Source: Sporohalobacter salinus
GTDB lineage: Bacteria; Bacillota; Halanaerobiia; Halobacteroidales; Acetohalobiaceae
DNA: 64,000 nucleotides
Direction: 5' to 3'
Assembly: GCF_016908635.1 (NCBI RefSeq)
Contig: NZ_JAFBEG010000010.1
Location: 1-64,000, forward strand
Within the stretch, counting starts at the first letter, position 1; every line of letters begins with the position of its first letter. The position numbers and the translations under genes were made by a program. The notes below the pieces were generated by a model, which worked only from the letters and a program-made list of their open reading frames with translations, did no database searches and was not told where the DNA came from. This document shows, piece after piece, positions 34,135 to 51,720 of this stretch.

Positions 34135-35022
34135 GTGACTAATTTGATAAAGAAAAATCTTATTTATTTTAAATTATTTTCTGTTGCTTTTTTCTTTGGA
34201 GGAACTTTTATAGCAGGGAAGATATTATCTCAAATTGTCCCCCCATTTACTTCTGCTTTTTTACGTTTTTTTATTGCTTCGATATTTCTTATAATCTTTG
34301 TAGTTAAGAAGCACGGTAAATTACCTCGACTTAATTGTAAACAATTCTTGACAATTTTAATTCTAGGATTTTCAGGAATTATGGGATATAACTTTTTCTT
34401 CTTTTCGGGATTAAAGATTATTTCAGCTAGCCGGGCATCAATGATTATTTCCTGCAATCCAGTAATTATTGCTGGATTTTCTAGTTTGTTGTTTAACGAA
34501 AAATTTACTAAATATAAATTAACCGGTATTTTAATTTCATTGATAGGAGCGTTAATTGTCATTTCCAGAGGTAATCCTCTTATCATTTTACAGGGTAATA
34601 TAGGCTTAGGAGAACTTTATATTTTGGGATGTGTAGGTTGTTGGGTTATCTTTACATTAACTGGTAAAATAGCAATGAATAAGCTACCACCATTAATAGT
34701 TATTACTTATGCTTGTATTATTGGGAGTATAATTCTACTTATTCCTGGTTATTTTGAAGGTGAATTACATCATTTAATTCGATTTAATCTAACTAAGTGG
34801 CTTAGTGTATTATTCCTTGGTTTTTTTGGAACTGCTTTAAGTTTTAACTGGTATTATGAAGGTATTAATAAAATTGGTCCTTCTAAGTCTGGTATTTTTC
34901 TTAATTTTGTGCCCGTCTGTGCTGTAATACTAGCAATCATAATTTTGAATGAACCTCTAACATTTTCTTTAGTTTTAGGTGCAATACTAGTAGTCAGTGG
35001 GATTTATTTGACAAATAAATAA
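34135..35022 (+). CDS. EamA-family DMT transporter
   Basis: A 295-residue permease with ten membrane helices in two EamA repeats. The first repeat starts with FGGTFIAGKILSQIVPPFTSAFLRF and the second with YILGCVGCWVIFTLTGKIAMNKLPP; LNEPLTFSLVLGAILVVSGIYL closes it. Such carriers export amino acids or other metabolites; the substrate is unknown. GTG start after TAGGAGG. It marks the left edge of the conserved backbone before the island. Confidence 0.88.
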   Translation: MTNLIKKNLIYFKLFSVAFFFGGTFIAGKILSQIVPPFTSAFLRFFIASIFLIIFVVKKHGKLPRLNCKQFLTILILGFSGIMGYNFFFFSGLKIISASRASMIISCNPVIIAGFSSLLFNEKFTKYKLTGILISLIGALIVISRGNPLIILQGNIGLGELYILGCVGCWVIFTLTGKIAMNKLPPLIVITYACIIGSIILLIPGYFEGELHHLIRFNLTKWLSVLFLGFFGTALSFNWYYEGINKIGPSKSGIFLNFVPVCAVILAIIILNEPLTFSLVLGAILVVSGIYLTNK

Positions 35023-35122
35023 AGAAATTAAACTTACTTAGAACTTCTTTATTAAACGGTTATTTTGGAAATTAATAGTATGGAAATGTTATGTCTTTCT
35101 AAAAATATAATATATCAAATAA

Positions 35123-35206
35123 AAAAGACTAGGGTGGATCCAACCCCTAGTCTTTTCCAGAACTATCTATATTTATTAATGGCAGAGATTAAAATGATCC
35201 CTGCCT
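35123..35206 (+). ncRNA. Twin-hairpin element in the left repeat
   Basis: Hairpin 1: AAAAGACTAGGG / CCCTAGTCTTTT, which also suits termination of the EamA gene. Hairpin 2: GGCAGAGAT / ATCCCTGCC (one mismatch) with a TAAAATG loop. Both stems are kept in the right copy at about 52847-52930. A small RNA is possible, not shown. Confidence 0.4.
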
Positions 35207-35407
35207 TACTCGAAAGATATAGAAAATAGACAGTACTGGAATTCTATAATTATTTTCTGTAAGATTCAAATAATATATTTATGTAGTATTTGTTAATTAT
35301 CATAACTAACTGTCAATATTACTTATTATTATAAATTTAATATCATAATATTTTAGAAAAACAAATATGCTTAACAAATCAAATAGATTATGGTAAAGGT
35401 GATTACT

Positions 35408-35595
35408 ATGAAAAAATAATTATAATTTTAATTGATTACATATCTTATTTGGCCCAATTATTTGCAATATTTATAATTACAAATGGAATAATAGTAGTCT
35501 TCTGGATTAATCTAAAGGATATTTTTGGTAGAGAAGATGATGTTAATGTTATGAAAAAGAGTAGAGAAAAATTAAAGTCTTCATTTTCTGAATGA
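35408..35595 (+). pseudogene. Broken DUF1622 membrane-protein gene
   Basis: A copy of the gene at 53132. It begins ATGAAAAAATAA: loss of one G after the start makes an immediate stop, and the remaining frame (IIIILIDYISYLAQLFAIFI, then DIFGREDDVNVMKKSR) ends early at KLKSSFSE because about 150 bases of the 3' half are deleted. The intact copy reads on into GLGILIGSSILRSVV. Confidence 0.88.
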
Positions 35596-35888
35596 AATTA
35601 AAAGAACTGTAATTTGATTTTATTTTACAATGTACAGAAAATATTGTAAAATAAGTTAAAATGTATAATAAAATTATACTAAAGGGAGGGAATCTAAAAA
35701 AAGACTTACAGTAAACAGTTTAAGAGAAAAGCAGTTCTATTAAATTCAAACTTTTTATAATTAATATTACCTAATTCAATAAAAGAAGATATTTTCCATA
35801 TTCTTTATTAAGCTAAAAGTTAATCGATAATAAGCTTAAATTTCTATAGAGCAAAGGAAAAATATATGAGAGGAATGATGTAATAATA

Positions 35889-36962
35889 ATGAAAGATAAA
35901 ATATTAGTTGTTGGTGGGTATGGTAAAGTAGGACGAGTTATCTGTCGAGATTTGGGAAAAAAATTTCCCGGTAAAGTTATTGCTGGGGGAAGAAATTATA
36001 AGAAAGCAAAGAAATTTGCTAAAACAACTAATGGAAATGTTTCGCCATTGGAACTTGATGTTAATGTAAATCCCAAAAAAAATAATATATTAGAGGGAGT
36101 TTCTATTGTCATAATGTGTATAGACCAAAAAAATATACAATTCATTAAATGTTGTTTAAGAAAGGGAGTAAATTATATAGATATTACAGCTTCATATAAT
36201 TTTTTATCAGAAGTTGAATTATTACATAATACAGCTAAATCTTCAGGAGTTACTGCTATTTTAAGTGTTGGGCTGTCGCCTGGTTTGACTAATTTATTAG
36301 TTCAATATAGCAAAAATCATTTTGATGTTTTAGAGAAAGTTGATATTTCTGTAATACTTGGGTTAGGCGAAGAACATGGGAAAGCAGCAGTTGAATGGAT
36401 GATTGATAATATAAATACTACATTTCAAGCTAATAAAAATGGGACTGAAAGAGAAATTAAAAGTTTTACAGATGGAAAAAAAGTTGATTTTTTTAAAACT
36501 GAGAGCAATAGAACTGCTTATCGATTTAATTTCCCTGAACAACATGTTTTACCTAAAACTCTAAATGTTAAAGAAGTTTCTCATCGTATTTGTTTTGATT
36601 CTAAATTTATTACAAGGATTCTGGCTTTTTTAAAAAAATTAGGTATATTAAATTTTTTAGAGTTAAAAAAATTAAGAAATGCTGTTGTAAAGTTTTTGAA
36701 TAATATTCATTTAGGTTCTGATAAATTTATTGTAAAAGTAAAAGCTTTTGGTAAAAAAGAAGGAAAAACAACTGACTTTGAATTTTCTATTCTAGGTAAT
36801 AATCAAACTAGAATTACAGGTAAAGTGGCAGCGATTGTAGCTGAAAATATTTATACAGAAAAGCTTTCATCTGGAGTTTATCATATTGAAGAAATTTTTA
36901 ACTTACAAGATATTATTGCTCAGCTAAATAATGATATTAATTTTTATTTTGATGATCTATAA
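35889..36962 (+). CDS. Saccharopine-dehydrogenase-like oxidoreductase
   Basis: A 357-residue protein of the saccharopine dehydrogenase family. The N-terminal Rossmann motif VVGGYGKVGRVICRDLG (residues 7-23) is followed by AGGRNYKKAKKFA, VSIVIMCIDQ, GVNYIDITASYNFLSEV and SVGLSPGLTNLLV, as in family members that act on varied substrates. The C-terminal domain is smaller and less conserved. The real reaction is unknown. It is the first live gene of the island, monocistronic, with GAGAGGA upstream. It is codon-wise like its neighbours. Confidence 0.8.
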   Translation: MKDKILVVGGYGKVGRVICRDLGKKFPGKVIAGGRNYKKAKKFAKTTNGNVSPLELDVNVNPKKNNILEGVSIVIMCIDQKNIQFIKCCLRKGVNYIDITASYNFLSEVELLHNTAKSSGVTAILSVGLSPGLTNLLVQYSKNHFDVLEKVDISVILGLGEEHGKAAVEWMIDNINTTFQANKNGTEREIKSFTDGKKVDFFKTESNRTAYRFNFPEQHVLPKTLNVKEVSHRICFDSKFITRILAFLKKLGILNFLELKKLRNAVVKFLNNIHLGSDKFIVKVKAFGKKEGKTTDFEFSILGNNQTRITGKVAAIVAENIYTEKLSSGVYHIEEIFNLQDIIAQLNNDINFYFDDL

Positions 36963-37209
36963 AATTTGAAGTAGAATTTTAACGTTGTATAGAAATTTTT
37001 GGATAATGAGTTAAAGGAAGAAATTATTTAATTTTTAATAAAAATAATATAGATAATTTTTAAATTTATTCTAAATTAGACGAGATATACAAATAAGCAA
37101 TTTTGTAAAGAAAAAAGCCAAGATTATGGACGTTCGAAAAAATATACTGACTTACAGATTGTAAATTCTTTCTCTTTAAAGTAAAAAATAAAATTTATTG
37201 CTTAAGAGA
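36963..37209 (+). other. Non-coding, AT-rich stretch
   Basis: Nothing recognisable: no open frame with a ribosome site, no long inverted repeat. It leads into the transposase relics. Confidence 0.5.
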
Positions 37210-37543
37210 ACAAGAAACTAAATTAAATGCTCCTCCATTTATTAAAGGAATAGGCATTAATAAAGCACCTGCTCACTCAACATTCTCAATTCGGGTAAAA
37301 AAATCAAAGCAAATAAGTTTTATTCCTCATTTCAGCAATTAGTTAATGTAATAGGACCAAATACTGGAGAAATGATATTGACTCTACCCCTTTAAGAGTT
37401 CGAAATGCGATTCTTAAGCCGAAAAAGCTATTCTACTAGAAGCAGGATGGTATAAAGGTTACAAATCCTATCTTATATTTTCAAAAAATTATATTCCTTT
37501 ATTTTTTACTATAACTACTACTAATATTTACGATTTTCAATAA
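37210..37543 (+). pseudogene. IS5/IS4-like DDE transposase relic
   Basis: Pieces in shifted frames, in order: NAPPFIKGIGINKAPAHSTF, then KANKFYSSFQQLVNVIGP, IDSTPLR (the first catalytic aspartate motif of DDE_Tnp_1 enzymes), GWYKGYKSYLIFSKNYIPLF and TITTTNIYDFQ before a stop. Several frameshifts separate them, so it cannot be functional. Both element ends are lost. Confidence 0.7.
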
Positions 37544-37663
37544 AATATTGTATAATAGTATTCATAATAAGGCTTTCCTTTCATTATGTTTGGGTAATTA
37601 CAAGCATTTTATCAAAAGGGAAGCTTTTTTCTATTTATTTGATTATAATCTCCAAAAATTATT

Positions 37664-37900
37664 TTACACTATGCCTGGGAAGATAGAAAAATAATAAAAT
37701 ATCTATATAATATTCAAAATAAATCAATATCTAAAATAACAGCTGAATTAGGTAGACATAGAACTAAAATAAGCAGGGAAATAAAGAAAGGCAAAGTAGA
37801 GTTTTTAAATACAGACTACTCGACTAGAGAGGAATATGATGCCAAGAAAGCTCAACAGGTGTATGAGAATAATGCTACGGCTAAAGGGCCTAAGAATTAA
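37664..37900 (+). pseudogene. IS30-family transposase N-terminal relic
   Basis: One open frame reads HYAWEDRKIIKYLYN, KITAELGRHRTKISREIKKG and DYSTREEYDAKKAQQVYENN before TAA. This is the helix-turn-helix (HTH_38) start of an IS30 transposase, with the typical ELGRH-x-T-x-SRE-IKRG pattern. The start codon and the whole DDE domain are missing. Confidence 0.82.
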
Positions 37901-38169
37901 AATTAGCTTAGATAGTAATTATATATGTAGGTATGATTTTTTTGAAAAAACCGTGCATTTAACCTTGCAATTCATACACGCATATTATAATTATTTTAAT
38001 TTGACATTAAACAAATTATATGCTAATATAAGGACATGTATTGTTAATATATGTATTTAAGTAAAATATTTTACTTAAATTAATAATAATGTTAATAAAA
38101 TAAGCCAACATTTAGGAATTTTTTAATATATGATGAGTAAATATCAAAGTTGTTTTCTCTACCGTTAAG

Positions 38170-38469
38170 GTGGAATCAAATTTAATACTCTTTATAACCT
38201 TAATCTCGGGAACATCTGGAAATGTAATAATTACAGAAGTTTTAATGCACGACAAAGAAATATTTGATAATTTAATCTGGAATTTTAATTACATTTATGT
38301 TTTTGATATAGCTTATATAAGCTATAAAAAATTTAATAAGTTTATTGAAGATGATATTTATTTTGTTACAAGAGCTAAATCTGATACTCAAATTAAAGTT
38401 ACTAAGTCAATCTCTTTAACCGATAGGGAATCTAATATTTTAAAAGAACCTGATGAGATTTATAGTTAA
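38170..38469 (+). pseudogene. IS4-family transposase relic
   Basis: A 99-codon open frame whose central part, YVFDIAYISYKKFNKFIEDD followed by IYFVTRAKSD, matches the second-aspartate region (D-x-GY...F-x-VTR) of IS4-type transposases. The usual arginine/glycine after the aspartate is changed to IAY. It lacks the rest of the enzyme. The start is arbitrary, with no ribosome site. Confidence 0.75.
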
Positions 38470-38599
38470 TTTCTCCATTTATTGGCTACAACTTTTTTAG
38501 GTTTTTTATAATGCAACGCTAGTGAGCTTAATTAAGACTAATTGTATTAAGGTGTAAATATAGGGTTAAATTGCTTTCAACAAGGGAGGAAATAAGAAA

Positions 38600-41026
38600 A
38601 TGAGAAAGATTAATATTTGTGTTATTAGCTCTAATCAAACTCTTATTGACGATATTTCCTTTATGATAAGTCACTTAAATAAAGTTATAAAGAAATATTT
38701 AGAAGAAGATAAAAATTCTACACCTGGTGACGATTATAATTATAAAGACATGATTTATGATGATGTATTTTATACTTTACTTAAACAGATAGCTCAGTAT
38801 CTTTCTAAGCAAAGAAAGCAATTTGTCTTAGATGCTTATTATTATGAAACATTTAAAAAGTTCCGGCAGGCAGCAAAAGAAGGAAAAATTGAGTTTTCTG
38901 ATGATTCAGCTTTTGAATTTTTTATTGTTTATAAACCAAAATTCGAACAAAGACTTTCAGGTAATCAGCGGTTTACAAATAAAAAAGAAGAATTAATCTC
39001 AATTTGTAATCAAAATGACATAGAAACTAAAATTTCTCCGAATTCATTCATTTTCTATATTGATAAAAAAAGATTGGATTCTTGGATTTTTTATAGTTCT
39101 GGAGGTTATCACTTACGTTTGTTTGATTGTGATGCTACTGATCGGCGGGCTGATTTACTAAGGCTAATAATGAATCATTTAGAACAAACCCGTTTTAATA
39201 AAATACTGAGCCGATATTTTGGAAAAAATTTATCTCCAGTAACTATTGCTCAGGAAATTAAACAATTTATGCGTTCTCAATGTTCAGAAAAATGGGATTT
39301 TTATTTTTACACGGGAAGTGCGATTGCTACATTTATTGAGTCAATGACTGATTCAAAATCTGAAATTTCTGCTAGGTGTTTTACTGGACCTAGTGAGCAT
39401 AGCTTAGCATGTGGAGCCTTATCAAGTTGGCTCCTTTATAATCGTGAATATGTGATAGCTATAACAATGGGAATGATTGATGAATTTCGAGGAACGTTAG
39501 CTAATTTACAGCGGGCTAAGGCGAACGGCTTTATTATTTGTGCTGAAAGTAAAACAGATACTTGGCAGCCTTTTCAAGGAACTATTAATCAGGAAAGTGA
39601 TGGGCTAGAAGTTATAGAAGCACGTGGCTTATCTTATGTATATATTGAAAAAACTAATGAAATTGCTGATAAATTGGAAGAAGCTTTTCGACTTTATCTT
39701 AAAAAAGGAGGCCCAGTAGTAATTTTTGCTACTCAGCAGGTATTAGATTCTCGTTCTGGTCAAAAAATTGAAATTTCTTATGCAAAAGAAAAAGCAACTA
39801 CCTTTTCTGAAATAAAAATAACAAAAAATGAAGAATTTAAAAAAGCATTAAAAGTGATTAATGAAACTCCTTCTCACATTCTTTGGCAGTGTGATAACTT
39901 AACTGATTCACAACGTGAATTAGTTTACGAGATAGCTGAGCAGGCTGGTATTGCTTTAGCTGATTCATTGATTTATCCTGGTAGTGTAAGTAGGTATTGG
40001 AAAGGGGAGAAAATACATAATTATCTTGGGTCACTAGCTATATATGGTTATAGCCGTCGTATTTATAAATTTTTACATAATGATCATAGACTTGCTGATA
40101 AAGAAGAACAGTGCTTGTTTTTTATAAATAGTAGAATAGGTCAGGTAGCAACTCCAATTTCGGAACCAAAATTAAAACGACGGCTGCAGGTTGCCCAAGT
40201 AAATAATAATTTAGAATATATGTCTCCTTTTACTGATATTCCAATTAATATACCGACAACTCAATTTTTACGAAATATAAAAGAAGAACTTGCTGTTAAA
40301 CCTTATATATTGAAAAAAAGGAAAAATAAAATAGACGAACTAAATAAAGTTTCTAAGGCTATGCCATGTGATCAGATAGGTAGTTTACCATTTTCGCTAG
40401 GTTATTTCTTTGAGCAGCTAAGAACATTAGTAAAAGAATTAATTGAAAATCAAGGATATCAGTATACTGGAGTATTTGAAGTTGGACGTAGTGGTGCATA
40501 TGCTATTTGCAAAATGCCTCTAACTAATCAAGGTTTTTCCGGCTGGTATGGACGAGCTCTTATGGGCGATGGACTTATGGCTTTACCTTATGTTGCTGTA
40601 AATACCCCTCTTAATGTTATAGCTTTTATTGGTGATGGAGCTCGTGGTTTAGTACCTAATATAGAGGAACAGTTGATATCCAAATTTACAGATAATCCAA
40701 AAAAGATGAAGAACAAAAATGTTACTGTGTTTTGTATGGTTAATGGAAACCTTTCTATGATTCAAAGTTACATTGATTATCAATATTCTCGCTGGGGATC
40801 AACTCAGACTATTTCTCCAGTTCATTTTAACAGAAAACAGAAGAAAAAATTTAATTCAGTCTCTGTTTGTCGAAAAACCATTGTTGATTTCGATGCTTCT
40901 ATGCTTAAAGAAGCTTTGACTTGTAAAGAAAGAATAAATTTCTTTGATGTTTTTGTCTCGCATAGTATGAGAGGTGACGGCTTGAGTCCCTTGACAGAGA
41001 AATTGTGGGACCATGAAAAATTATAA
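38600..41026 (+). CDS. PigD-like ThDP-dependent carboligase
   Basis: An 808-residue ThDP enzyme that resembles PigD of prodigiosin biosynthesis, which adds an acetyl unit from pyruvate to 2-octenal to give 3-acetyloctanal. A long N-terminal domain of about 200 residues with no simple family match precedes the PYR-like domain (FTGPSEHSLACGALSSWLL, MGMIDEFRGTLANLQRAKA, near 260-320) and the PP domain with IGDGARGLVPNIEEQLIS (GDG near 678) and VFCMVNGNLSMIQSY, the Mg-ThDP motif. Length is close to PigD (about 870). AGGGAGG before the ATG. The PigE-like gene follows after 53 bases. No other pig genes are present; the substrate aldehyde is unknown. Confidence 0.78.
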   Translation: MRKINICVISSNQTLIDDISFMISHLNKVIKKYLEEDKNSTPGDDYNYKDMIYDDVFYTLLKQIAQYLSKQRKQFVLDAYYYETFKKFRQAAKEGKIEFSDDSAFEFFIVYKPKFEQRLSGNQRFTNKKEELISICNQNDIETKISPNSFIFYIDKKRLDSWIFYSSGGYHLRLFDCDATDRRADLLRLIMNHLEQTRFNKILSRYFGKNLSPVTIAQEIKQFMRSQCSEKWDFYFYTGSAIATFIESMTDSKSEISARCFTGPSEHSLACGALSSWLLYNREYVIAITMGMIDEFRGTLANLQRAKANGFIICAESKTDTWQPFQGTINQESDGLEVIEARGLSYVYIEKTNEIADKLEEAFRLYLKKGGPVVIFATQQVLDSRSGQKIEISYAKEKATTFSEIKITKNEEFKKALKVINETPSHILWQCDNLTDSQRELVYEIAEQAGIALADSLIYPGSVSRYWKGEKIHNYLGSLAIYGYSRRIYKFLHNDHRLADKEEQCLFFINSRIGQVATPISEPKLKRRLQVAQVNNNLEYMSPFTDIPINIPTTQFLRNIKEELAVKPYILKKRKNKIDELNKVSKAMPCDQIGSLPFSLGYFFEQLRTLVKELIENQGYQYTGVFEVGRSGAYAICKMPLTNQGFSGWYGRALMGDGLMALPYVAVNTPLNVIAFIGDGARGLVPNIEEQLISKFTDNPKKMKNKNVTVFCMVNGNLSMIQSYIDYQYSRWGSTQTISPVHFNRKQKKKFNSVSVCRKTIVDFDASMLKEALTCKERINFFDVFVSHSMRGDGLSPLTEKLWDHEKL

Positions 41027-41091
41027 AATTAGATATTTTTTCTTTCATTTAATTAAATAATAAATTTTTTAGAAAGGAAGTGACATTAATT

Positions 41092-43614
41092 ATGAAATTT
41101 GGATTTATAGCTCATCCTACTTCTTTAAAATTAAAACGTTATATTAAAATTTCTGATCTTGTTTCTAGGCATATTAAAGATCAGGAAGACGGTTTTGATA
41201 CTGAACGTTGGCAGTATCGTAATTTAATTCCTACTATTGATTTTGGCCAAATTTCAAGTTCAAATGATTCGGTATGTGAAGGAAGTATTTATTCTATGCC
41301 GCTTACTGCAAATGAAATGTTAGATCAGCCGCGAGATATAGCTAAACGAGTAGTCGACAGCGTAAATCAATTGAAAGAAGATGGAGCTGAGTTAGTAGGT
41401 TTGGGAGGTTTTACAGGAATTATCGGCAATCGAGGAAAAAAAACTCTTGAGAAAACTGGAGTACCGGTAACTACAGGAAACTCTTTAACTGCATATACTA
41501 CTTGGCAAAATATGCTTAATGTGTTGGATCACCTTGAGATAAACCCTGAAAATGCTGAAATTGCTGTAGTTGGTTATCCGGGTTCGATTGCTTTGGTAGT
41601 TGCTAAATTATTGTTACGTCAAGTAGATAACTTGGTATTAGTTTATCGCGGAGATAGTAACAAAGAAGAAAAACTTTTAAACCATCTTGCAAAAAAATAC
41701 CACAATCAAGTTAGGTTAACTAATGATATAGAAACTTGTTATGATCAAGTTCAATTTTATGTTTCGGCAACTTCCAGTGGTTCAGTTATTGATCCTTATG
41801 CTTTACCTTCAGGCTCTGTTGTGGTTGATGCTGCTCTTCCTCAGGATGTTAAGTCTTATGATAATGATCGTAATGATATTATTGTAATTGATGGAGGATT
41901 AATTTCTGCTAACAATGATTTTCAGTTAGGAAGTAAAATAATGGGGATTGCACCGGATAAATCAATTAACGGTTGTATAGCTGAAACGATAGTCCTTGCA
42001 CTTGAAGATCGGGCTGAATCTTTTTCTGTGGGACGTGAGTTATCTCAAGAAAAAGTTATTGAAATTGGAGAAATAGCTGCAAAACATGGTCTTACTCCAA
42101 CTAGATTAACTTCTTATGGAGAAAAAATTGATCAAAGTGATTTTTATAAACTAAAGAAATTCTTTCGAGATTCCCAAAAGCAAAAATCATATGATTTAGA
42201 AGAATGGTCCGGCCAAGAACTTCATTCTGAAATTTTTCAATTATTTGGAGAGCATATAAATCCTTATTTTCGAGATTTTTACGAGTTTAATTATATTGAT
42301 AGAGTGTTTATCGAAGGTAAAGGTTGTACTCTTGTTGATACCGAAGGAAAAGAATTTTTAGATTTTGTAGGAGGTTATGGATGCCTTAATACAGGGCATA
42401 ATCATCCAGATATTGTGGAGGCAGTAAATAGTTATCTTAATAAAGGATATCCTACGTTTACTCAGTATGTGTCTGCTCCAGCTCAAACTAGTATCCTTGC
42501 TGAAAAATTAGCTGAATTAACCCCGGGAGATCTAGAACGGACTTTCTTCAGTAATTCAGGTACTGAAGCTGTTGAAGCTGCTATTAAATTAGCAAAGGCA
42601 GCTACTGATAATCCCCGTTTTTTATATTGTGATAATAGTTATCATGGTAAAACACTTGGTTCATTATCGATAACTGGCCGCGATAAACACCGGTCAATTT
42701 TTGAACCATTATTACCGAAATGTACAAGTATCCCGTTTGATGATATCGAAGCACTAGAGACTGAATTAGAAAAAGGTGATGTTGGAGCTTTTATTTTGGA
42801 ACCAATCCAGGGCGAAGGGGGAGTTATTTTACCTTCTAGAGATTATCTTGCTTCAGTAGAAAAGCTCTGCAACAAATACGACTGTATCCTGATAATGGAT
42901 GAAATTCAAACTGGATTCTGCCGAACCGGAAAAATGTTTGCTTGTGAGCAGACAGGTATTGAGCCGGATATTATTGCGTTAGCAAAATCACTATCAGGAG
43001 GTCTTGTTCCGATTGGAGCTACAGTTACGCGAAAAGAACTTTGGGACCGAGCTTATGGAACAGCTGATAATTTTGCTTTGCATACATCCACCTTTGGTGG
43101 AGGAAATCTTGCAGCAACAGCTGGAATTGCTGCTCTTGAAGTAATGAACAAAGAAGGTCTTGCTGATAATGCTTTGTCTGTTGGTTCAATGCTAAAAGAA
43201 GAATTACAAAATATTGCTCAAAATTATCCCTTTATTAAAGAAGTGCGAGGGCAAGGATTGATGATTGGAATTGAATTTTCTAATCCTTATGATAAGGGAA
43301 TTGAAGGGCTTATAGATGAGTTTGCTAGTCGGATTCCTGGAAATGTTTTTGCAACTTATCAGTTTTTGTCAGATAAAGCTAAAAGTAATATTGAGATGGC
43401 AATTAAAGAGTTTGAAAAAAGTTTTGAAGAAATGTTCCTGATGCGAATAATTGCTAAACTTTCTCATCAATATGGAATTCTTACTTTTGTGACTGCAAAT
43501 ACATCTAAAGTAATGCGAATTCAGCCTCCATTAGTTCTTACTAAAAAACAAGCTCGTTATTTTGTTGATTCTTTTGCAAAAGTATGTGAAGATATGACAA
43601 CAGTTTTAGGTTAA
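41092..43614 (+). CDS. PigE-like acyl reductase-aminotransferase fusion
   Basis: An 840-residue two-part enzyme. Residues 1 to about 365 (MKFGFIAHPTSLKLKRYIK, GLGGFTGIIGNRG, TTGNSLTAYT, VVGYPGSIALVVAKLLLR) resemble the acyl-ACP reductase/NAD-binding half seen in PigE and cyanobacterial AAR. Residues about 375-840 are a class III aminotransferase: DFVGGYGCLNTGHNHP, FFSNSGTEAVEAAIKLAKA, IMDEIQTGFCRTG, and LAKSLSGGLVPIG with PLP lysine K632. The order and length match PigE (about 850 residues), which aminates 3-acetyloctanal to a 4-amino ketone that cyclises. ATG 41092 follows AAAGGAAGTG. It uses more GC-ending codons than its neighbours, hinting at transfer. Confidence 0.85.
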   Translation: MKFGFIAHPTSLKLKRYIKISDLVSRHIKDQEDGFDTERWQYRNLIPTIDFGQISSSNDSVCEGSIYSMPLTANEMLDQPRDIAKRVVDSVNQLKEDGAELVGLGGFTGIIGNRGKKTLEKTGVPVTTGNSLTAYTTWQNMLNVLDHLEINPENAEIAVVGYPGSIALVVAKLLLRQVDNLVLVYRGDSNKEEKLLNHLAKKYHNQVRLTNDIETCYDQVQFYVSATSSGSVIDPYALPSGSVVVDAALPQDVKSYDNDRNDIIVIDGGLISANNDFQLGSKIMGIAPDKSINGCIAETIVLALEDRAESFSVGRELSQEKVIEIGEIAAKHGLTPTRLTSYGEKIDQSDFYKLKKFFRDSQKQKSYDLEEWSGQELHSEIFQLFGEHINPYFRDFYEFNYIDRVFIEGKGCTLVDTEGKEFLDFVGGYGCLNTGHNHPDIVEAVNSYLNKGYPTFTQYVSAPAQTSILAEKLAELTPGDLERTFFSNSGTEAVEAAIKLAKAATDNPRFLYCDNSYHGKTLGSLSITGRDKHRSIFEPLLPKCTSIPFDDIEALETELEKGDVGAFILEPIQGEGGVILPSRDYLASVEKLCNKYDCILIMDEIQTGFCRTGKMFACEQTGIEPDIIALAKSLSGGLVPIGATVTRKELWDRAYGTADNFALHTSTFGGGNLAATAGIAALEVMNKEGLADNALSVGSMLKEELQNIAQNYPFIKEVRGQGLMIGIEFSNPYDKGIEGLIDEFASRIPGNVFATYQFLSDKAKSNIEMAIKEFEKSFEEMFLMRIIAKLSHQYGILTFVTANTSKVMRIQPPLVLTKKQARYFVDSFAKVCEDMTTVLG

Positions 43615-43748
43615 ATGAAGTTATTAAATTGACTAGGACTATTAAGATTTTTGACAGTACCTAATTTTTGATGAAAAAAGTTAATTATGACAGCAGTATG
43701 CTGATTCTTATGAGTATCAACTCCAACAAAGATATATATGAGATTCAA
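43611..43748 (-). pseudogene. IS110-family transposase N-terminal relic
   Basis: On the minus strand one frame reads NLIYIFVGVDTHKNQHTAVI, then NFFHQKLGTVKNLNSPSQFN and a stop that overlaps the end of the PigE-like gene. FVGVDTHK...TAV is the first RuvC-like aspartate motif of IS110 recombinases. Only 45 of about 400 codons remain. Confidence 0.8.
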
Positions 43749-43754
43749 TTCCTT

Positions 43755-43885
43755 TCAAGATAATATATTAAATCATCAAACAGATCCTATTATAGTAGCG
43801 TTGAATGTAGCGTCCTATTGACTACCTCTGATGATTAAAAAAGTGGGTGGAAAGGAGCCATAGAGGCACTCTACCTCGCTTAAGT
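43755..43885 (-). ncRNA. Possible IS110 bridge-RNA relic
   Basis: Directly upstream of the IS110 relic. A stem AATCATCA / TGATGATT (43771-43778, 43829-43836) encloses a loop of about 50 bases with GTAGCGT twice (43795-43801, 43807-43813), and a small hairpin GAGG / CCTC (43863-43877) lies at the 5' side. Known IS110-group elements encode a bridge RNA at this place with hairpin plus guide loops. Assignment is inference. Confidence 0.4.
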
Positions 43886-43982
43886 TAAATATAACAAAGT
43901 TTAGATCAAAAATTAAGATGGAGTACAAATTTTCAACTTGTTGGTAAGACTTCTTTAAAATAACACAATGGGGAGTGGTAAA

Positions 43983-44612
43983 ATGTTTAGACGAGCTTTT
44001 GTAGAGTTAATAATTGTTTTACTTGTTAGGTGGCCTCGATTGATGGAATCAACTATTATAAAAAAATCAATAGTATTTATTTATGGAAAACTAATAGCTG
44101 ATGATCTGGATCAAGTAATTAAGAAAAAGGAAGATTATGATAAACCAATAATTAATGCCCTCCGGTATATTAAGTCAAATTTTGATCAACCTCAAAAAGT
44201 TCTTGATTTAGGAACAGGTACTGGATTTGGTGTTTTTAAAACTAAGGAAATTATCGAGTCAAAAGAGATAATAGGGGTAGATTTATCTAAAAACATGCTC
44301 GAAATAGCCCGAAAAAAAGCAAAGGCAAGGGAGGGGGATAATATTTTTTTTGAGCAGCAAGATGCATCTGATCTGAGTTATGAAAGTAATAGCTTTGACC
44401 TTTTGATGAGTAATAATTGTCCTTGCTATTTAAAAGAGGTAGCTAGAGTTTTAAAACCTTCCGGATTATTTTTATTTACTCTATCTTATAGTGGAGAAAA
44501 AGTAATGAAACACAAACCTCGATTGGAAAAATTTTTAAGAAGACATGGTTTTCAGATAAATAAGATGGATCAAGGAGGGAATGGGGTATACATTATTGCA
44601 GAATTGTCTTAA
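43983..44612 (+). CDS. Class I SAM-dependent methyltransferase
   Basis: About 209 residues. The SAM-binding motif I is VLDLGTGTGFGVFKTKEI (near residue 72), motif II IIGVDLSKNMLEIARKKA, then SNSFDLLMSNNCPCYLKEVARVLKPSG with the post-motif loop and KPSGLFLFTLS. The N-terminal 60 residues are hydrophobic and helical (FVELIIVLLVRWPRL), perhaps membrane-associated. ATG 43983 follows GGGGAG; the ATG at 43968 precedes that site. It lies after the PigE-like gene beyond the IS110 relic; a role in modifying the same product is possible, not shown. Confidence 0.83.
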   Translation: MFRRAFVELIIVLLVRWPRLMESTIIKKSIVFIYGKLIADDLDQVIKKKEDYDKPIINALRYIKSNFDQPQKVLDLGTGTGFGVFKTKEIIESKEIIGVDLSKNMLEIARKKAKAREGDNIFFEQQDASDLSYESNSFDLLMSNNCPCYLKEVARVLKPSGLFLFTLSYSGEKVMKHKPRLEKFLRRHGFQINKMDQGGNGVYIIAELS

Positions 44613-45023
44613 TTCTGAACAAATTTTAATAACTTCTGATTAATTTTGCCAGATTATTTGAAATATAAATGGATATTAAACCGGCATATGCCGCATTAAT
44701 TTTTTCAAGAAGCTTTTTTAGCGTGCTTCGGAAATTATATAAATAACAAATGCAAATTCTGTTCATGTTATTAAGGAAAAGAAAAAGGTTTTGGAAAGGG
44801 AGCTAACTTAAATCTAATTCGACTTTGAAGATAAATAAAGGTTAATTTTGTAAGCTGGATTGGATTTTTTGAAAGGATATGATTTAAACTTAATGAGGTG
44901 CAGTTTAGATTAAGTTCTGTGCTAAAAATTCACTTAGATATTTGACAAATTGAAGGTAAGAGTGTTATAATTTTCATTGAATTAATTTTCGATAAAAATC
45001 AGTATTATAAAGGAAGTGAAATT
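44613..45023 (+). promoter_or_regulatory. Intergenic region with the TetR-gene promoter
   Basis: A small palindrome CGGCATATGCCG (44683-44694) followed by ATTAATTTTTT may end the methyltransferase transcript. A promoter TTGACA (44942-44947), 18 bases, TATAAT (44966-44971) serves the TetR gene. The rest shows no coding potential. Confidence 0.65.
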
Positions 45024-45617
45024 ATGGCTCCTAAATTAGTTAATGTAGACCAAAAAAAGCAGAAAATAATAGAGGGAACCCTTGCTGCTTTAGCCAAAAA
45101 AGAATTAAATCAATTAAAAATAGCTGATATTGCTGACGAACTTGATATGGGGCAGAGTACTATTTATGAATACTTTAAGAATAAAGATGAACTTATCAAA
45201 GAAGCTTTAGAATATTTTTTACAGCAGTTACATGTTCCCGAAGAAAATGAAAGTTTAACTGCTTTAGAAGAATTAAAGCGATTACTAAAGCAGGTTGAAA
45301 AGCAAGTAAAAGCGAATAAACTAAATGAAATTAATCTGTTGATTGATTTGTTTTATCAGGGGATTAAAGGGGATTTTAACCAGTTAGAAGAAGTTTATAA
45401 AGATTATCTAGATTATATGGAAGCAAGAATAGCGGAAGATCAAAAAAGAGGGCTAATCAGAGAGGACATTAATCCCCAGGCTTTAGCTTCTTGGGTGGGG
45501 GCTGTTGTTGATGGATTAGGGTTACAAATATTATTAAGGTCAGAAGGTTTTGATATTGATGAAGTACTTGGTTCGTTTATAGAAGCAGTAGAAATATATA
45601 CAATAAAAGAGAGTTAA
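45024..45617 (+). CDS. TetR/AcrR-family repressor
   Basis: A 197-residue regulator. The N-terminal DNA-binding domain (about 10-55) reads LKIADIADELDMGQSTIYEYFKNKDELIKEAL, given here in parts: IADIADELDMGQSTIYEYF and KNKDELIKEAL. The C-terminal ligand domain is helical, with a likely dimer interface near ALASWVGAVVDGLGLQILL. It sits just upstream of an RND exporter operon, with a 40-base palindrome between them, so it almost surely represses that operon and leaves when it binds the exported compound or an analogue. It has its own promoter and terminator. AAGGAAGTG before the ATG. Confidence 0.92.
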   Translation: MAPKLVNVDQKKQKIIEGTLAALAKKELNQLKIADIADELDMGQSTIYEYFKNKDELIKEALEYFLQQLHVPEENESLTALEELKRLLKQVEKQVKANKLNEINLLIDLFYQGIKGDFNQLEEVYKDYLDYMEARIAEDQKRGLIREDINPQALASWVGAVVDGLGLQILLRSEGFDIDEVLGSFIEAVEIYTIKES

Positions 45618-45631
45618 ATTAAATAAAGATA

Positions 45632-45658
45632 AGAAGCTTCCTTGTAGGAAGCTTTTTA
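45632..45658 (+). terminator. Terminator of the TetR gene
   Basis: AAGCTTCC / GGAAGCTT around TTGTA, then T5. Confidence 0.85.
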
Positions 45659-45660
45659 AT

Positions 45661-45700
45661 ACAAATTATTTTGAACGAATATTCGTTCAAAATAATTTGT
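45661..45700. promoter_or_regulatory. 40-bp perfect palindrome, TetR operator
   Basis: The two 20-base halves, ACAAATTATTTTGAACGAAT and ATTCGTTCAAAATAATTTGT, are exact reverse complements. The core GAACGAATATTCGTTC is like operators of AcrR/TetR repressors. It lies 50 bases before the exporter gene. Confidence 0.88.
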
Positions 45701-45748
45701 AAGTTTATTAGGCTATTACAATTGAAAGTATAGAAAGGAGAGGGGAAA

Positions 45749-48376
45749 ATGAGAAAAAAATTATTTAATTTAATTGCTGATTTAATTACGAGTAAGCCTA
45801 AACAGATTTTAGCAATTGCTGCTGTTATAACATTAATTATGTTAGTGTTGACAAGTAATTTAAATCTAGAACTGAGTTGGGTTGGATTAGCCCCTAAAGG
45901 TGACCCATCCCAGAAAGAATATAAGAAAATTATAGAAAACTATCCTTCAGCAGGTAATATATATGTTACTGTTAAGGACGAAAATGGAAATCCGACCCGG
46001 GCTGCTCGATTAGCAGTAGAAGCATTAGAAGATATAAAGTATATCAAGGATGTAAATTATAAGTTGAATACAGATTATTTGTTAAATAATGGACTTCTGC
46101 TTTATAAAACTAAAAATTTATCTGAAATAACCCCTACATTAAAGAATCCTAATTTGACGGATTATATAAGAAATTTAAACCAAGTTTATGAAGATGAATA
46201 TAGAGGAGACAGCGATAATATTAAAGATGATGAAAAAGAGTTGGTTAGATCTTTTCGAGGGATAAAAACTTTTTTACAGACAGCTAATACTTCTTTGAAT
46301 AAAAACATTTCCACTAAAACAGTTCATTCTCAAGTTGATCGGTTGCTACTTGGAGATCCTTATTTTAGATCTAATAATGGTAAACTTTTATTGATGACTT
46401 TACAGCCTACCTTTAATATGATGGATTATTCCAAACTTGAGCCAGGGATAGGAGCAGTTGAAAAGAAATTAAAAGAGTTAGAACAGGCTAACCCTAATTA
46501 TCACTTCGGTCTTACCGGGATGCATGTAATAGTTCGAGATGAAATGGTGACTACTACGCAGGATTCCACCTTAGCAATGATTATGGGATTTATTTTAGTA
46601 ATAATTATTTTAGTTGCCGCATTTAAAATGTGGTTGTCGCCGTTGTTGGCGGCAATTCCTCTTATTACAGGTATTATCTGGGATCTGGGTCTTGCTTCTA
46701 TTTTTATCGGTCGGTTAAACTTAATAACTGCTTTTACGGCTGCAATTTTAATTGGGTTGGGCATTGATTTTTCTGTTCATACTTTAAGTGGTTATACGGA
46801 AGCAAAAAGTAATGGACTGTCAGCTAAGGAATCTGTTTATTATATTTTGACGGAAGTTGCCCCGGCAATATTAACAGGAGCTTTAACTACAGCAGCAGCT
46901 TTTTTTGCTTTAACTGTTACTTCTTTGGGAGTTTTAGTTGAGTTAGGTATTATTATGGGAATAGGAATTTTAACTACAGTAGTAGCTGTATTGTTTATTC
47001 TGCCAACATTATTATTTCTTAGGACGAAAAAATTTAAGGAGGCTAAAATAAATAAAGGTCGCTATTATACTATTGGTACTGTAGCAAGCTGGACCAAAAA
47101 ATTCAAATATGCTGTAATCCCACTTTTATTGATTATTCTTGCCTTTATGGGATGGCAGGGAAAACAAGCTAAATTTTATCTTAACATTGAAAAAATAGAA
47201 CCGCAAGGATTAGAATCAATTAAAGTAACAGATAAAATAGCTGATAAATTTGATATGAGTAATGATGCAATTATGTATACTACGGATAGTTTAAACAGGA
47301 CTTACTCTATAGCAGAATGGGCCCGGGATAAGTCGCAAGTAGAGATGGTAAGAACAATAACAGATTATTTACCGCCCAAGAAAATACAGCAAAAAAGATT
47401 GAAAGAATTAAAAGATATAAATAAAGCTTTGTCTAATCCACCTAGTTATCACAAAATAGAGCGTAATAAGTTAGTGGCTGAGTTAATTCGCTTGCAGAAA
47501 AATATTATTGAAATTGGTCAACTGTCTTTCATGTCAGGAGTTGACGAGATTGTAAACGTAACTGATAAAATTACTGGTACAAAACAAAAGTCAGGTATAT
47601 TGCCTAAATTAATAGATAAGTTAAAATCTAATAATTATAATCAGCAGTATTTAACTAAATTTAGTCAAGACTTTTATAAATCCTTCGAACAAAAATGTAA
47701 ACTTATGAAAATAGAAGATACCCTGTCGCTTGAAGATGTTCCTCAAGATATAAAAAGTCGCTTTTTGCCAAAAAGCGGCAACTCCTTTTTAACATCAGTT
47801 CATGCTCAGGGTCATCTATGGAAAAAAATAAAGAAACCAACTGGGGAAAGATTTATTTATATGATGCGGGAAAAAATCCCGAAAATAACTGGAGCTCCTG
47901 TATTTATGCGGGTTTTATATGATGCAGTAGTAAAAGAAGCAACTAAGTCTTTATTAGTTGTAGGTGTTACTTTACTTATCCTGCTAATGATCCATTTTAG
48001 ATCTGTCAAACAAGTGATGGTAGGGTTTGTTCCTATGGTATTTGCCTTAATTATGACCTTAGGAATGGTTAAGGTATTGAAGGTTAATTTAGATATTATT
48101 AGCGCCCTTGCTTTCCCTTTAATTGTAGGGATTGGAATTGATGATTGTGTTCATGTAATTCATAGGTTAAATGCAACTGATGAAGATTTAGAGATGGTTT
48201 TTAGCAGCGCAGGACGAGCTATTTTATTGACTTCTCTGACTACGATGGCCTCATTTGGATCCTTAATGATAGCTAATTACCAAGCAATATTTAGAATGGG
48301 GGTTGTCTTATTTGTCGGGGTAGCTTTTTGTTTTTTGATGACTTTGTTTGTAGTTCCTATTTTTCTAGATAATTAA
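45749..48376 (+). CDS. RND-superfamily (MMPL/HAE3-type) exporter
   Basis: An 875-residue inner-membrane transporter with 12 predicted helices in two halves, each with a large periplasmic loop (about residues 35-270 and 470-730). Conserved transport motifs: LIGLGIDFSVHTLSGYTEA (near 335) and IVGIGIDDCVHVIHRLNA (near 795), each with the GxxxD element. This is the MMPL/HAE3 type, which moves lipids, hopanoids or other hydrophobic compounds and needs no membrane-fusion protein of the AcrA type. It is the first gene after the operator and is followed by a LolA-like protein and a beta-barrel, forming an inner-membrane to outer-membrane route. Confidence 0.9.
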   Translation: MRKKLFNLIADLITSKPKQILAIAAVITLIMLVLTSNLNLELSWVGLAPKGDPSQKEYKKIIENYPSAGNIYVTVKDENGNPTRAARLAVEALEDIKYIKDVNYKLNTDYLLNNGLLLYKTKNLSEITPTLKNPNLTDYIRNLNQVYEDEYRGDSDNIKDDEKELVRSFRGIKTFLQTANTSLNKNISTKTVHSQVDRLLLGDPYFRSNNGKLLLMTLQPTFNMMDYSKLEPGIGAVEKKLKELEQANPNYHFGLTGMHVIVRDEMVTTTQDSTLAMIMGFILVIIILVAAFKMWLSPLLAAIPLITGIIWDLGLASIFIGRLNLITAFTAAILIGLGIDFSVHTLSGYTEAKSNGLSAKESVYYILTEVAPAILTGALTTAAAFFALTVTSLGVLVELGIIMGIGILTTVVAVLFILPTLLFLRTKKFKEAKINKGRYYTIGTVASWTKKFKYAVIPLLLIILAFMGWQGKQAKFYLNIEKIEPQGLESIKVTDKIADKFDMSNDAIMYTTDSLNRTYSIAEWARDKSQVEMVRTITDYLPPKKIQQKRLKELKDINKALSNPPSYHKIERNKLVAELIRLQKNIIEIGQLSFMSGVDEIVNVTDKITGTKQKSGILPKLIDKLKSNNYNQQYLTKFSQDFYKSFEQKCKLMKIEDTLSLEDVPQDIKSRFLPKSGNSFLTSVHAQGHLWKKIKKPTGERFIYMMREKIPKITGAPVFMRVLYDAVVKEATKSLLVVGVTLLILLMIHFRSVKQVMVGFVPMVFALIMTLGMVKVLKVNLDIISALAFPLIVGIGIDDCVHVIHRLNATDEDLEMVFSSAGRAILLTSLTTMASFGSLMIANYQAIFRMGVVLFVGVAFCFLMTLFVVPIFLDN

Positions 48377-48397
48377 ATTTATATAGGAGGAGATAAC

Positions 48398-49159
48398 ATG
48401 AGATTAAAAATTAAGGCAATAAGCTTGATAGTGTTAATGTTAATTTTGATTGGTGTAGGATCTGGTTTTGCTTCTGAAATTACTGGAAAAAAGATACTAG
48501 ATAAGGCAGAAACAAGTATGGATTACGGTCACTTTAAGGGCAAGTCCAAAATGATAATTTATACTACTAGTGGAGATAAGAGAGTTTTAAAAATGAAAAT
48601 GTGGGGGAAAGGAACTGAAAAATCTATGATGAAATATTATGCTCCTTCACGGGTTGAAGGAGTAGCGTTTCTCTATTTTTCTAATGATATTTGGTCTTAT
48701 TTTCCCAGAACTGGCCGAACTAGACATCTTGCTTCGCATATTAAAAATCAAAAAATGATGGGGAGTTCCTTTAATTATGAAGATTTTAGCAATGATATAT
48801 TTGATGATTACCAAGGCAAATTAATTAAAGAAGAGAGGTTTAAAGAAAAAAAATGTTATGTTGTAAAGGCTAAAGCTAAAAATGAGACAACAGCTTATGA
48901 CCAATATATTGCCTGGATAACTAAAGAAGAATTTACACCGTTGAAAATTGATTATTATAATAAGGGAAGAAAAATTAAGGAAATGAGAGTTAAAGCCTTT
49001 CTAAATATAAACGAAGATATAAAAGTAAAAAAGATGGTAATGAAAGATTTAAGAGAAGATGATAAAACTGTATTTAAGTATTCAGAGATAAAAACAGGAG
49101 TTAATTTTAGACCTAACTTTTTTCATAAGCGAAATTTAGAAAGGATTTCTCATAGATAG
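48398..49159 (+). CDS. LolA-like outer-membrane lipoprotein-sorting protein
   Basis: A 253-residue secreted protein. Signal peptide about 1-26 (ISLIVLMLILIGVGSGFASE). The mature part matches the family named outer membrane lipoprotein-sorting protein (PF17131): KSKMIIYTTSGDKRVLKMKMW, YAPSRVEGVAFLYF, WSYFPRTGRTRHL and MGSSFNYEDFSNDI. It has a LolA-like half-barrel fold that carries hydrophobic ligands. It is regularly next to MMPL-type RND genes, as here, and should shuttle the cargo across the periplasm. No lipobox. Starts 22 bases after the exporter gene with AGGAGG. Confidence 0.87.
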   Translation: MRLKIKAISLIVLMLILIGVGSGFASEITGKKILDKAETSMDYGHFKGKSKMIIYTTSGDKRVLKMKMWGKGTEKSMMKYYAPSRVEGVAFLYFSNDIWSYFPRTGRTRHLASHIKNQKMMGSSFNYEDFSNDIFDDYQGKLIKEERFKEKKCYVVKAKAKNETTAYDQYIAWITKEEFTPLKIDYYNKGRKIKEMRVKAFLNINEDIKVKKMVMKDLREDDKTVFKYSEIKTGVNFRPNFFHKRNLERISHR

Positions 49160-49171
49160 GAGGGGAGTAAA

Positions 49172-50380
49172 ATGAGAAAAAAGTTAATACCTGTTGTAGT
49201 GACGGTATTAGTAGTTATAACTTCTTCACCATTACAGGCAGTAGATTTGTCTTACGGTGGGCAAGTGAATAGTTATTTGGAACAATATGAAGAGGAAGGG
49301 ACTAATTACTTTACTTCTTTAACTGAATTAAAGCTGAAATTAACTGGCCAATTGGCTAATTGGAGCTTTCATTTTGACGGTAGTTTAAATCTAGATGAAC
49401 AAGAAATGGAAGGGTGGGCAGATTATTCACCAGAAGGTGATACAGAATTAAATAAATTGTATTTTAATTTGTGGCTACCTAAAGGAGAAGTAAAAGTCGG
49501 CAAACAAAGAATAGCCTGGGGCTCTGGTTATTTCTTTAACCCAACTGATATTATTAATCCGATAGATGATAATAGTAAAGTAAGTAGTAGGCAGAGTAAG
49601 AGCAAACGGAATACAAATAGTGTATATGGAATGTATTATCTGCCGCAGGGTACTTTAGAAGGAGTGATAGTTACTGATTTTCAGGAAATTGGCCCCGGAA
49701 CTGAAAAGGAAGCTAATTCTTATATTAATCAGATAAATCCTTTATTTTCAGGTGAAATAAAGCTGCCCAATGGATTTAATGAAGAAAAGGAATGGGCCCT
49801 AAAGTATTCTACGTTAATTAATAATTTTGATGTTGCTTTAAATTATTATCAGGGTAGAGAAGATCATCCAGTGCCTCAAATTAATCCCCGGAAAAGAAAA
49901 GTAATTTTATCTTATCCTGAAAAAAAGATGATTGGCTTTGATACAGCAGGTACTTTAGATGATGTAGGAGTGTGGGGGGAAGCTTCTTATTCCTTCCCTG
50001 ACAAAGGAGATAATTACTCACAGATAATAATAGGTATGGACTACACTTTTGCAACGGGAATTCACTTATTAGGAGAGTATTATAGAGATGAAAGCTTAGG
50101 TAATTATACGGTAAAAGAAGTAACTGAAAAAGATTTTATTACTCTCCGAAGTGATTATGATTTAACAGATTCAATTGAAATTTCTGGTAATGGCATATTT
50201 TCTTTAGAATCTGACTTTACTGGTTTAGCAGGAAAAGTTACTTATTCTTATACTCAAGATATTGAATTAAAAGTAGGAGTTAATAAACTTATAAATGAAG
50301 AAGGAACGGTTTTTGCTAGTGAAAGTAGTTTGCTTCCTTTTAAAAATAAAATATACTTTAAGGGCACATATTATTTTTAG
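49172..50380 (+). CDS. Outer-membrane beta-barrel protein
   Basis: A 402-residue protein with a signal peptide (about 1-23, ending SSPLQAVD) and alternating amphipathic strands throughout, such as VDLSYGGQVNSYLEQY, WSFHFDGSLNLD, VKVGKQRIAWGSG and a last strand KIYFKGTYYF ending in phenylalanine, the BAM recognition signature. The GKQRIAWGSGYFFNPTDIINP segment resembles DUF1302-type porins found with RND/LolA-like genes. It shows that the cell has an outer membrane. Last gene of the TetR-controlled operon, 12 bases after the LolA-like gene. Confidence 0.83.
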   Translation: MRKKLIPVVVTVLVVITSSPLQAVDLSYGGQVNSYLEQYEEEGTNYFTSLTELKLKLTGQLANWSFHFDGSLNLDEQEMEGWADYSPEGDTELNKLYFNLWLPKGEVKVGKQRIAWGSGYFFNPTDIINPIDDNSKVSSRQSKSKRNTNSVYGMYYLPQGTLEGVIVTDFQEIGPGTEKEANSYINQINPLFSGEIKLPNGFNEEKEWALKYSTLINNFDVALNYYQGREDHPVPQINPRKRKVILSYPEKKMIGFDTAGTLDDVGVWGEASYSFPDKGDNYSQIIIGMDYTFATGIHLLGEYYRDESLGNYTVKEVTEKDFITLRSDYDLTDSIEISGNGIFSLESDFTGLAGKVTYSYTQDIELKVGVNKLINEEGTVFASESSLLPFKNKIYFKGTYYF

Positions 50381-50486
50381 TTTTTAACCCAAAATTTGAT
50401 TTAAAATTAAGTTGAAGAAATCTCCGGGCCAACTATATGTTAATCAACTTTATTGTAACTTTGTCAGCTATTTATTACTGGGGTGA

Positions 50487-50780
50487 TTAATCTCGAAGGT
50501 CTCTTAAAATAGCTAGTCTTAATTTCTTTTCAGTAAATAATTGTTTTAATTTATCATTTTCAAAACTTACTTTTTCTAATTGTTCAAAAATTTCTTTAAG
50601 CTTTTTCTTTTTGTCTTTAGGTGAAGATTCGACCGATTCAGTTTCACGAGCTTTTTTAATCCACGAATAAACAGTACTTTTAGAAATCTCATGACGTCTG
50701 GCTACTAAAGCAGTATTGCCAACTTGTCTACATCTTTTAACAATTTATTCTTTGAATTCATCAGAATATTGATTTTTAGT
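50487..50780 (-). pseudogene. IS3-family OrfA relic with an in-frame stop
   Basis: On the minus strand the frame reads KNQYSDEFKE, TAA (50745-50747), then IVKRCRQVGNTALVARRHEI, SKSTVYSWIKKARE and a coiled-coil part LEKVSFENDKLKQLF. This is the OrfA HTH_Tnp_1 protein of IS3 elements. The start codon is also spoiled (AAAAGACT where AAAATGACT is expected after GGAGG). No OrfB is present. Confidence 0.82.
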
Positions 50781-50865
50781 CTTTTAGACCTCCGAATTGT
50801 AAAATAGAAGGTGAAAATTATGTTATATTAAAAATAGAGATCAACTTTCTATTTTTGGTTATAGA

Positions 50866-51625
50866 GCTATGAAATTATCAACAAAGATGATAGGATTTGT
50901 TACTATCTCCGCGATAAACTAATACAAAGTTATCTACAGATTTAAAAAAGGAAAATATTCAAATTTAATAAAATATTATTTTTACAATTTCTACGGTAAT
51001 GTTAATTCTATTATCTGGAGAAAGGTATGCTCTTTTTCCTATGGTATCTTTATTTCTCTTTTGGTAATTTCTATATATTTTAGAAAAAGAGTAATCTATT
51101 CATATATAACTTCGATTATAATTAAATTCAATTGTTTTTTAAAATTTATCTTTTCAACCATGATAGTATCGATCTATTTTTTCTAATATTTTTCTTTTTA
51201 GTACTGGAGTTATAGCTGTATTTTCCTCTAATATTGTTAGGAAATCAATGAAGAAAAGCAAAATATTGAAACTACAATAAATAGTATTGAAGAAATTAAT
51301 CAAGTAGTTAAGGAGTTAGATAATAGAAGAAATAAATGAACTAGTTGAATTAATCACTAATATAACTGAATAAACTAATTTGTTAGCGCTAAATGCTTCT
51401 GTAGAAGCAGCTAGGGCAGGTGAGTACAGGGCAGTAGTAGTAAATGAAATTAAAGAATTGGCAGAAGAAACTAGTCATGCGACGGAAAAAGTTGCTGAAT
51501 TAGTTAGAAGAACATAGTACCAAGAATACTATTGATGATTTAGCCTAACAAAGTGATGGAATAGATGATGCTGCAAAAGATATAAGTAATATATTTATAG
51601 AAATTAAAAAACTTATTAGAAAAAT
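50866..51625 (+). pseudogene. Decayed methyl-accepting chemotaxis protein gene
   Basis: The start survives: MKLSTKMIGFVTISAIN then TAA. Unreadable sequence follows, with traces of a membrane segment, and at 51340-51530 the signalling-domain core is plain: [38 protein letters not shown] and LVRR, with several stops and frameshifts. The gene is dead. No other chemotaxis gene is near. Confidence 0.82.
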
Positions 51626-51720
51626 CTGAGTGGTAATTCTGGTCTTAAACTTGGTAGTAGAGAGATAGCAGAAGAAGTAAATTTAAAATTGCAATATAAA
51701 AGTCAAATGGAGGGATTAAT

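Follow-up and report, generated by a model that had tools for sequence, protein, structure and literature searches.

Two adjacent genes in the 64,000-nt stretch of DNA analysed here (the window) rather likely form a stand-alone alkyl-pyrroline synthase of the PdtL/PdtM type that was acquired horizontally. The chemistry is of a known kind. What is new is that the pair is assigned to the PDTC-type clade, that a gene source is proposed for a set of orphan compounds, and that the two-gene module occurs in an anaerobe.

The gene pair and its catalytic residues

The first gene (38600..41026, forward strand) encodes an 808-aa PigD/PdtL-like, ThDP-dependent acetyl transferase of the Stetter type, and a Shine-Dalgarno sequence, AGGGAGG, lies 5' of its ATG. 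The second (41092..43614, forward strand) encodes a PigE/PdtM-like fusion of 840 aa from its ATG, or 844 aa from an alternative GTG at 41080, in which an acyl-thioester reductase (residues ~1-360) is joined to a class III aminotransferase (~400-840). This succession of a ThDP enzyme and a reductase/aminotransferase fusion had been read from the DNA in an earlier note, and was borne out by the NCBIfam models NF053552 and NF053554, by Serratia PigE (4ppm) and by a fold model. The PigE equivalog NF053554 matched the second protein over its full length with 1348.7 bits, above the cut-off of 850, and 4ppm matched residues 1-839 (8e-266). The PigD equivalog NF053552 matched residues 45-806 of the first protein with 676 bits (8.5e-203), which is under its cut-off of 950 bits; a PigD of pdt type (locus L031) likewise stayed below it, at 685 bits. 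The cut-off of NF053552 thus leaves out the PdtL-type proteins tested, while NF053554 labels the PdtM-type protein of the window 'prodigiosin PigE'. Since that protein passes NF053554, the model does not separate PdtM-type proteins from prodigiosin PigE, and its name can mislead annotation.

In the Pfam search of the pair, the class III aminotransferase domain alone was recognised, and no family matched the PigD-like protein. A PDB sequence search with the PigD-like protein also gave no match, and fold comparison was therefore used. The structure model, built from a 30-row alignment (pLDDT 79), was compared with the PDB using Foldseek, and the best matches were acetohydroxyacid synthases and other ThDP enzymes (E 6e-19). 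As modelled, the protein has the ThDP fold and resembles the acetohydroxyacid synthases.

The residues expected of both enzymes were well preserved. Among columns with 98% or higher invariance in the relatives, the PigD-like protein kept 65 of 68, including the catalytic glutamate E266 and the GDG motif G678-D679-G680, which together with the fold place it among the ThDP enzymes. The PigE-like protein kept 183 of 190, including D603, the PLP lysine K632 and C295, which occupies the position of the Serratia reductase Cys296; both hallmarks of a PigE-type enzyme, the reductase cysteine and the PLP lysine, were therefore present. The ThDP glutamate, the PLP lysine and the thioester/aldehyde site, which the earlier note had singled out for checking, were all retained.

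Placement of the pair among PDTC-type loci

With one genome scanned per species, 69 PigD/PigE loci were found, and three plasmid loci were added. They split into prodigiosin loci with pigA-J and a second large group with none of these genes. The window PigE-like protein was 58-60% identical to this second, pdt-type group versus 47-53% to the prodigiosin copies; the PigD-like protein was ~41% identical to the second group over its full length. In the trees, the window proteins fell within the PdtL/PdtM clade (support 100/99 for PigE and 100 for PigD), and grouping them with the prodigiosin enzymes was rejected for both PigE (AU p 0.0084) and PigD (AU p 4e-49). On these sequence comparisons, the PdtL/PdtM-type clade is placed as sister to prodigiosin PigD/PigE, and the window pair lies outside the prodigiosin branch. 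The earlier assignment of the genes as PigD/PigE-like held for homology, gene order and domains, but the prodigiosin grouping did not, the closest relatives being of the PdtL/PdtM type. The window shares with the prodigiosin pairs of Serratia, Hahella and Pseudoalteromonas the gene order, the domain make-up, the catalytic residues and the expected chemistry as far as the pyrroline. However, prodigiosin loci carry PigB, PigC and the MBC genes, and the window has none of the three.

The window sat on a long branch in both the PigD and the PigE tree, and the pair is therefore a deep member of the clade. Because of this position, its substrate may have shifted from that of the clade. The N-terminal 180 residues of the PigD-like protein were just 19% identical to the Pseudomonas copies.

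The loci of the second group carry, beside PigD and PigE, an AraC regulator, a TonB siderophore receptor, an MFS transporter, a MoeZ-like adenylyltransferase/sulfurtransferase, a JAMM protease, a MoaD-like sulfur carrier, a type III CoA transferase, an AMP ligase and an acyl-CoA dehydrogenase. Sulfur-carrier and thioacid genes are the mark of thiocarboxylate pathways (PMC6006322). In Pseudomonas the order is AraC-TonB-P-MFS-PigD-PigE-MoeZ-JAMM-MoaD-CoA transferase-AMP ligase-acyl-CoA dehydrogenase-MFS. This fits the order of the PDTC cluster in P. kilonensis F113, pdtCKPELMFGHIJON, so that by position PigD corresponds to PdtL and PigE to PdtM; the mapping comes from gene order, not from the F113 sequence. 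The Pseudomonas pair was the best match of the window pair and shared its clade in both trees. Nevertheless, it lies inside a metallophore cluster (MoeZ, JAMM, MoaD, CoA transferase, AMP ligase, TonB receptor), and the window holds none of these genes.

The pair and the thioacid set occur together in Pseudomonas, Halomonadaceae, Thauera, Hahella, Microbulbifer, Xenorhabdus and Photobacterium, and every cluster includes an acyl-CoA dehydrogenase and an AMP ligase of its own, as might be expected if PdtL/PdtM made a building block, short-chain or carboxylated, for a thiocarboxylate metallophore instead of free alkyl-pyrrolines, and the window pair a related small amine or imine. We consider this unlikely. 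Two PDTC strains are reported to contain free long-chain pyrrolines, which are exactly the PigD/PigE type of product. Moreover, neither prodigiosin nor thioacid genes were found in the window, pdtF-J being absent beside the pair, and a thioacid set elsewhere in the genome was rejected because the single JAMM gene sits in a cysteine-type setting (MoaD-MoeB-JAMM-CysM). Brenneria salicis (L044) likewise has a pair of this clade with no adjoining prodigiosin or thioacid set.

Other settings were also seen. The prodigiosin-side pairs of Microbulbifer halophilus and Photobacterium lipolyticum adjoin neither set, and in the former (L093, 9521-16787) the gene immediately after PigD-PigE resembles an arginine decarboxylase; ornithine and arginine are the amino donors preferred by Serratia PigE. 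In two Photorhabdus loci (L050, L079) a PigD-like gene of the pdt-type clade has no full-length PigE adjoining it. Micromonospora echinofusca (L078) combines PigD-PigE with a CoA transferase, an AMP ligase and an acyl-CoA dehydrogenase, and MoeZ, JAMM and MoaD were not detected at this locus. A third setting is found in Streptomyces iconiensis (L067), where the pair stands beside polyketide synthase genes (KS, AT, DH, KR, TE). PigD/PigE chemistry is thereby separated from the red pigments: it seems to serve prodigiosin, thiocarboxylate clusters, the Streptomyces polyketide locus and stand-alone pairs.

Proposed route and product

In Serratia, PigD takes an acetyl group from pyruvate and attaches it to a 2-octenoyl thioester at the beta carbon, the N-domain of PigE reduces the thioester, its C-domain transaminates the aldehyde, and the resulting amino ketone cyclises to H2MAP, 5-methyl-4-pentyl-3,4-dihydro-2H-pyrrole (PMC8341465; PMC7065143). 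The earlier note had named an enal as the acceptor of PigD. This belongs to an older version of the pathway; the acceptor is an enoyl thioester, and the aldehyde is made by the PigE N-domain (PMC8341465).

We infer by analogy that the window enzymes run the same reactions. The PigD-like enzyme would load onto ThDP an acetyl group from pyruvate and attach this at the beta carbon of an ACP- or CoA-bound 2-enoyl thioester from fatty acid synthesis. The N-domain of the PigE-like protein would then reduce the 3-acetylacyl thioester to the 3-acetyl aldehyde through Cys295, and the C-domain would transaminate this, with PLP on Lys632, to the amino ketone. Spontaneous ring closure of the amino ketone would give a 2-methyl-3-alkyl-1-pyrroline in which the alkyl group has three carbons fewer than the acyl chain, and without PigB this pyrroline would be the end product of the pair.

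A PigB query found no match in the whole genome. The PigC query gave weak, partial matches confined to its C-terminal end, and a PigC homologue was rejected on these grounds; the PigB and PigC of the prodigiosin MAP pathway were thus not found in the genome. The absence of PigB and of bipyrrole genes asserted in the earlier note was confirmed. Since the host is anaerobic and both are missing, the pathway is expected to end at a pyrroline or amino ketone, in support of the stop at this stage that the note had foreseen. In the known system, H2MAP without PigB is not oxidised to MAP in air (PMC7065143).

Compounds of this class are known from Pseudomonas. According to PMC7415375, among four tested strains characterised pyrroles came from F113 alone, as 3,4-dihydro-5-methyl-4-alkyl(C11:0)- and alkenyl(C13:1, C15:1)-2H-pyrroles; the same paper cites their first isolation from P. 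putida DSM 3601 (Hildebrand and Budzikiewicz 1986), a PDTC strain by the title of Leach 2007. Wheat root extracts raise both the pyrrolines and the PDTC derivatives in F113 (PMC7911646). These pyrrolines are long-chain homologues of H2MAP. Enoyl thioesters of C14, C16:1 and C18:1 would give the reported chains after loss of three carbons from the acyl length, and the computed masses of 238.25 (C14) and 264.27 (C16:1) match the published m/z values of 238 and 264.

Because two PDTC strains make them, and because in F113 they rise together with the PDTC derivatives, PdtL/PdtM probably make 2-methyl-3-alkyl(C11-C15)-1-pyrrolines; the basis is the two strains, gene order and co-induction. A product of this kind is therefore also probable for the window pair, acting as a stand-alone module, with a long chain of ~C11-C15 expected by analogy with Pseudomonas. 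This provides proposed genes for an orphan compound class described in 1986, and a concrete predicted product for an anaerobic halophile (m/z 238, 264, 266 and related). To our knowledge, such alkyl-pyrrolines have not been reported from Halanaerobiales. The earlier note had called the product undescribed for the group of the host, which has to be qualified by the compounds already reported from PDTC Pseudomonas strains in PMC7415375. The product class predicted here is that of DSM 3601 and F113, but those are compounds of aerobic Pseudomonas, and their genes are not assigned in PMC7415375 or PMC7911646; our literature search yielded no report connecting the Pseudomonas pyrrolines with pdtL/M or with PigD/E homologues. 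As a tentative though serious possibility, we put forward a two-part proposal: that PdtL/PdtM are the genes behind the Pseudomonas pyrrolines, and that a two-gene form of this synthase is a portable unit that crossed from aerobic proteobacteria, or from a common source, into an obligately anaerobic, halophilic member of the Halanaerobiales, where it would make a lipophilic cyclic imine from a fatty-acid intermediate without oxygen.

The insert and its other genes

The genome nearest to the host was that of Acetohalobium arabaticum, placed as a congener. A. arabaticum is an anaerobic halophile of the Halanaerobiales (PMC3035264). Its locus is collinear with the window on both flanks, with a sigma factor and a DUF1622 gene ~250 bp apart, and lacks a block of ~19 kb (34135..52542). 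Two direct repeats of 540 bp, 96% identical, were found, of which A. arabaticum has one copy. The left copy (35054..35590) repeats sequence upstream of the DUF1622 gene at 53114 plus the 5' part of that gene, and the right copy (52776..53315) runs into the intact DUF1622 gene; the 17.2 kb between them lie inside the insert. This arrangement looks like single-crossover integration, or an insertion bounded by a duplication of the target.

The earlier note had suggested looking for the pair in other Halanaerobiales. It was not found in ~100 relatives, sampled Halanaerobiales included, nor outside the window genome in 397 genomes of the phylum, where two weak matches (E 4.5e-5 and 2.5e-4) spanned just ~115 residues. 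Phages and viral contigs held no PigD relatives. Upstream of the pair, the AT-rich segment 36960-38470 contains probable remnants of transposase genes, one at 38170..38469 on the forward strand (weak DDE_Tnp_1 match, E 0.01, under the cut-off) and an IS30-like fragment at ~37.7-37.9 kb judged by eye. The upstream remnant had no match among plasmids, in DNA or protein searches.

Downstream, all on the forward strand, lie a class I SAM methyltransferase (43968..44612; Methyltransf_31), whose link to the pair is unproven, a TetR regulator (45024..45617) and, by family matches, an MMPL (HpnN-like) transporter, a LolA-like protein and a DUF1302-like protein (45749..50380). The TetR gene has its own near-perfect (12/12) promoter match at 44942-44971. 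Between the TetR and MMPL genes is a perfect palindrome, TTGAACGAATATTCGTTCAA (45671..45690), the sole copy in the window and likely the TetR operator of the MMPL unit. An operator shared with the region upstream of pigD was rejected, none being found there.

The earlier note had pointed to the methyltransferase and the regulated hydrophobic exporter as neighbours. Their positions were confirmed, but a conserved linkage to the pair was not found. Were the entire insert one pathway, the pyrroline would be methylated by the methyltransferase and exported by MMPL-LolA-DUF1302 under TetR control. All these genes are in the insert that A. arabaticum lacks, and HpnN-like MMPL proteins transport hydrophobic molecules. 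Nevertheless, we regard this as distinctly improbable: the TetR-MMPL unit has its own promoter and operator, the TetR-MMPL-LolA order recurs without PigD/E on a Haliovirga plasmid, and beside PigD/E elsewhere there was one weak 29% methyltransferase match and no other methyltransferase, TetR or MMPL homologue. The exporter is regarded as a separate module that arrived with this insert; hypothetically, it may play a part in exporting the pyrroline. More improbable still is an idle pair, carried along on a mobile or tandemly integrated segment and yielding nothing in this host. Its occurrence in a single genome among ~400 of the phylum and the probable transposase remnants upstream might suggest as much, but against it stand the intact reading frames, the near-invariant residues kept despite the long branch, the good Shine-Dalgarno sequence and a GC content in line with the surroundings.

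An exporter shared with the pdt loci was also rejected, as the conserved trio beside P. putida-type and Thauera loci is not MMPL-LolA-DUF1302 but consists of a TonB receptor, a TbpB-like lipoprotein and a Slam protein. These three genes were grouped beside four pdt-type loci (L086 by domains; L043, L088 and L052 by clustering), and they possibly form a surface-receptor set.
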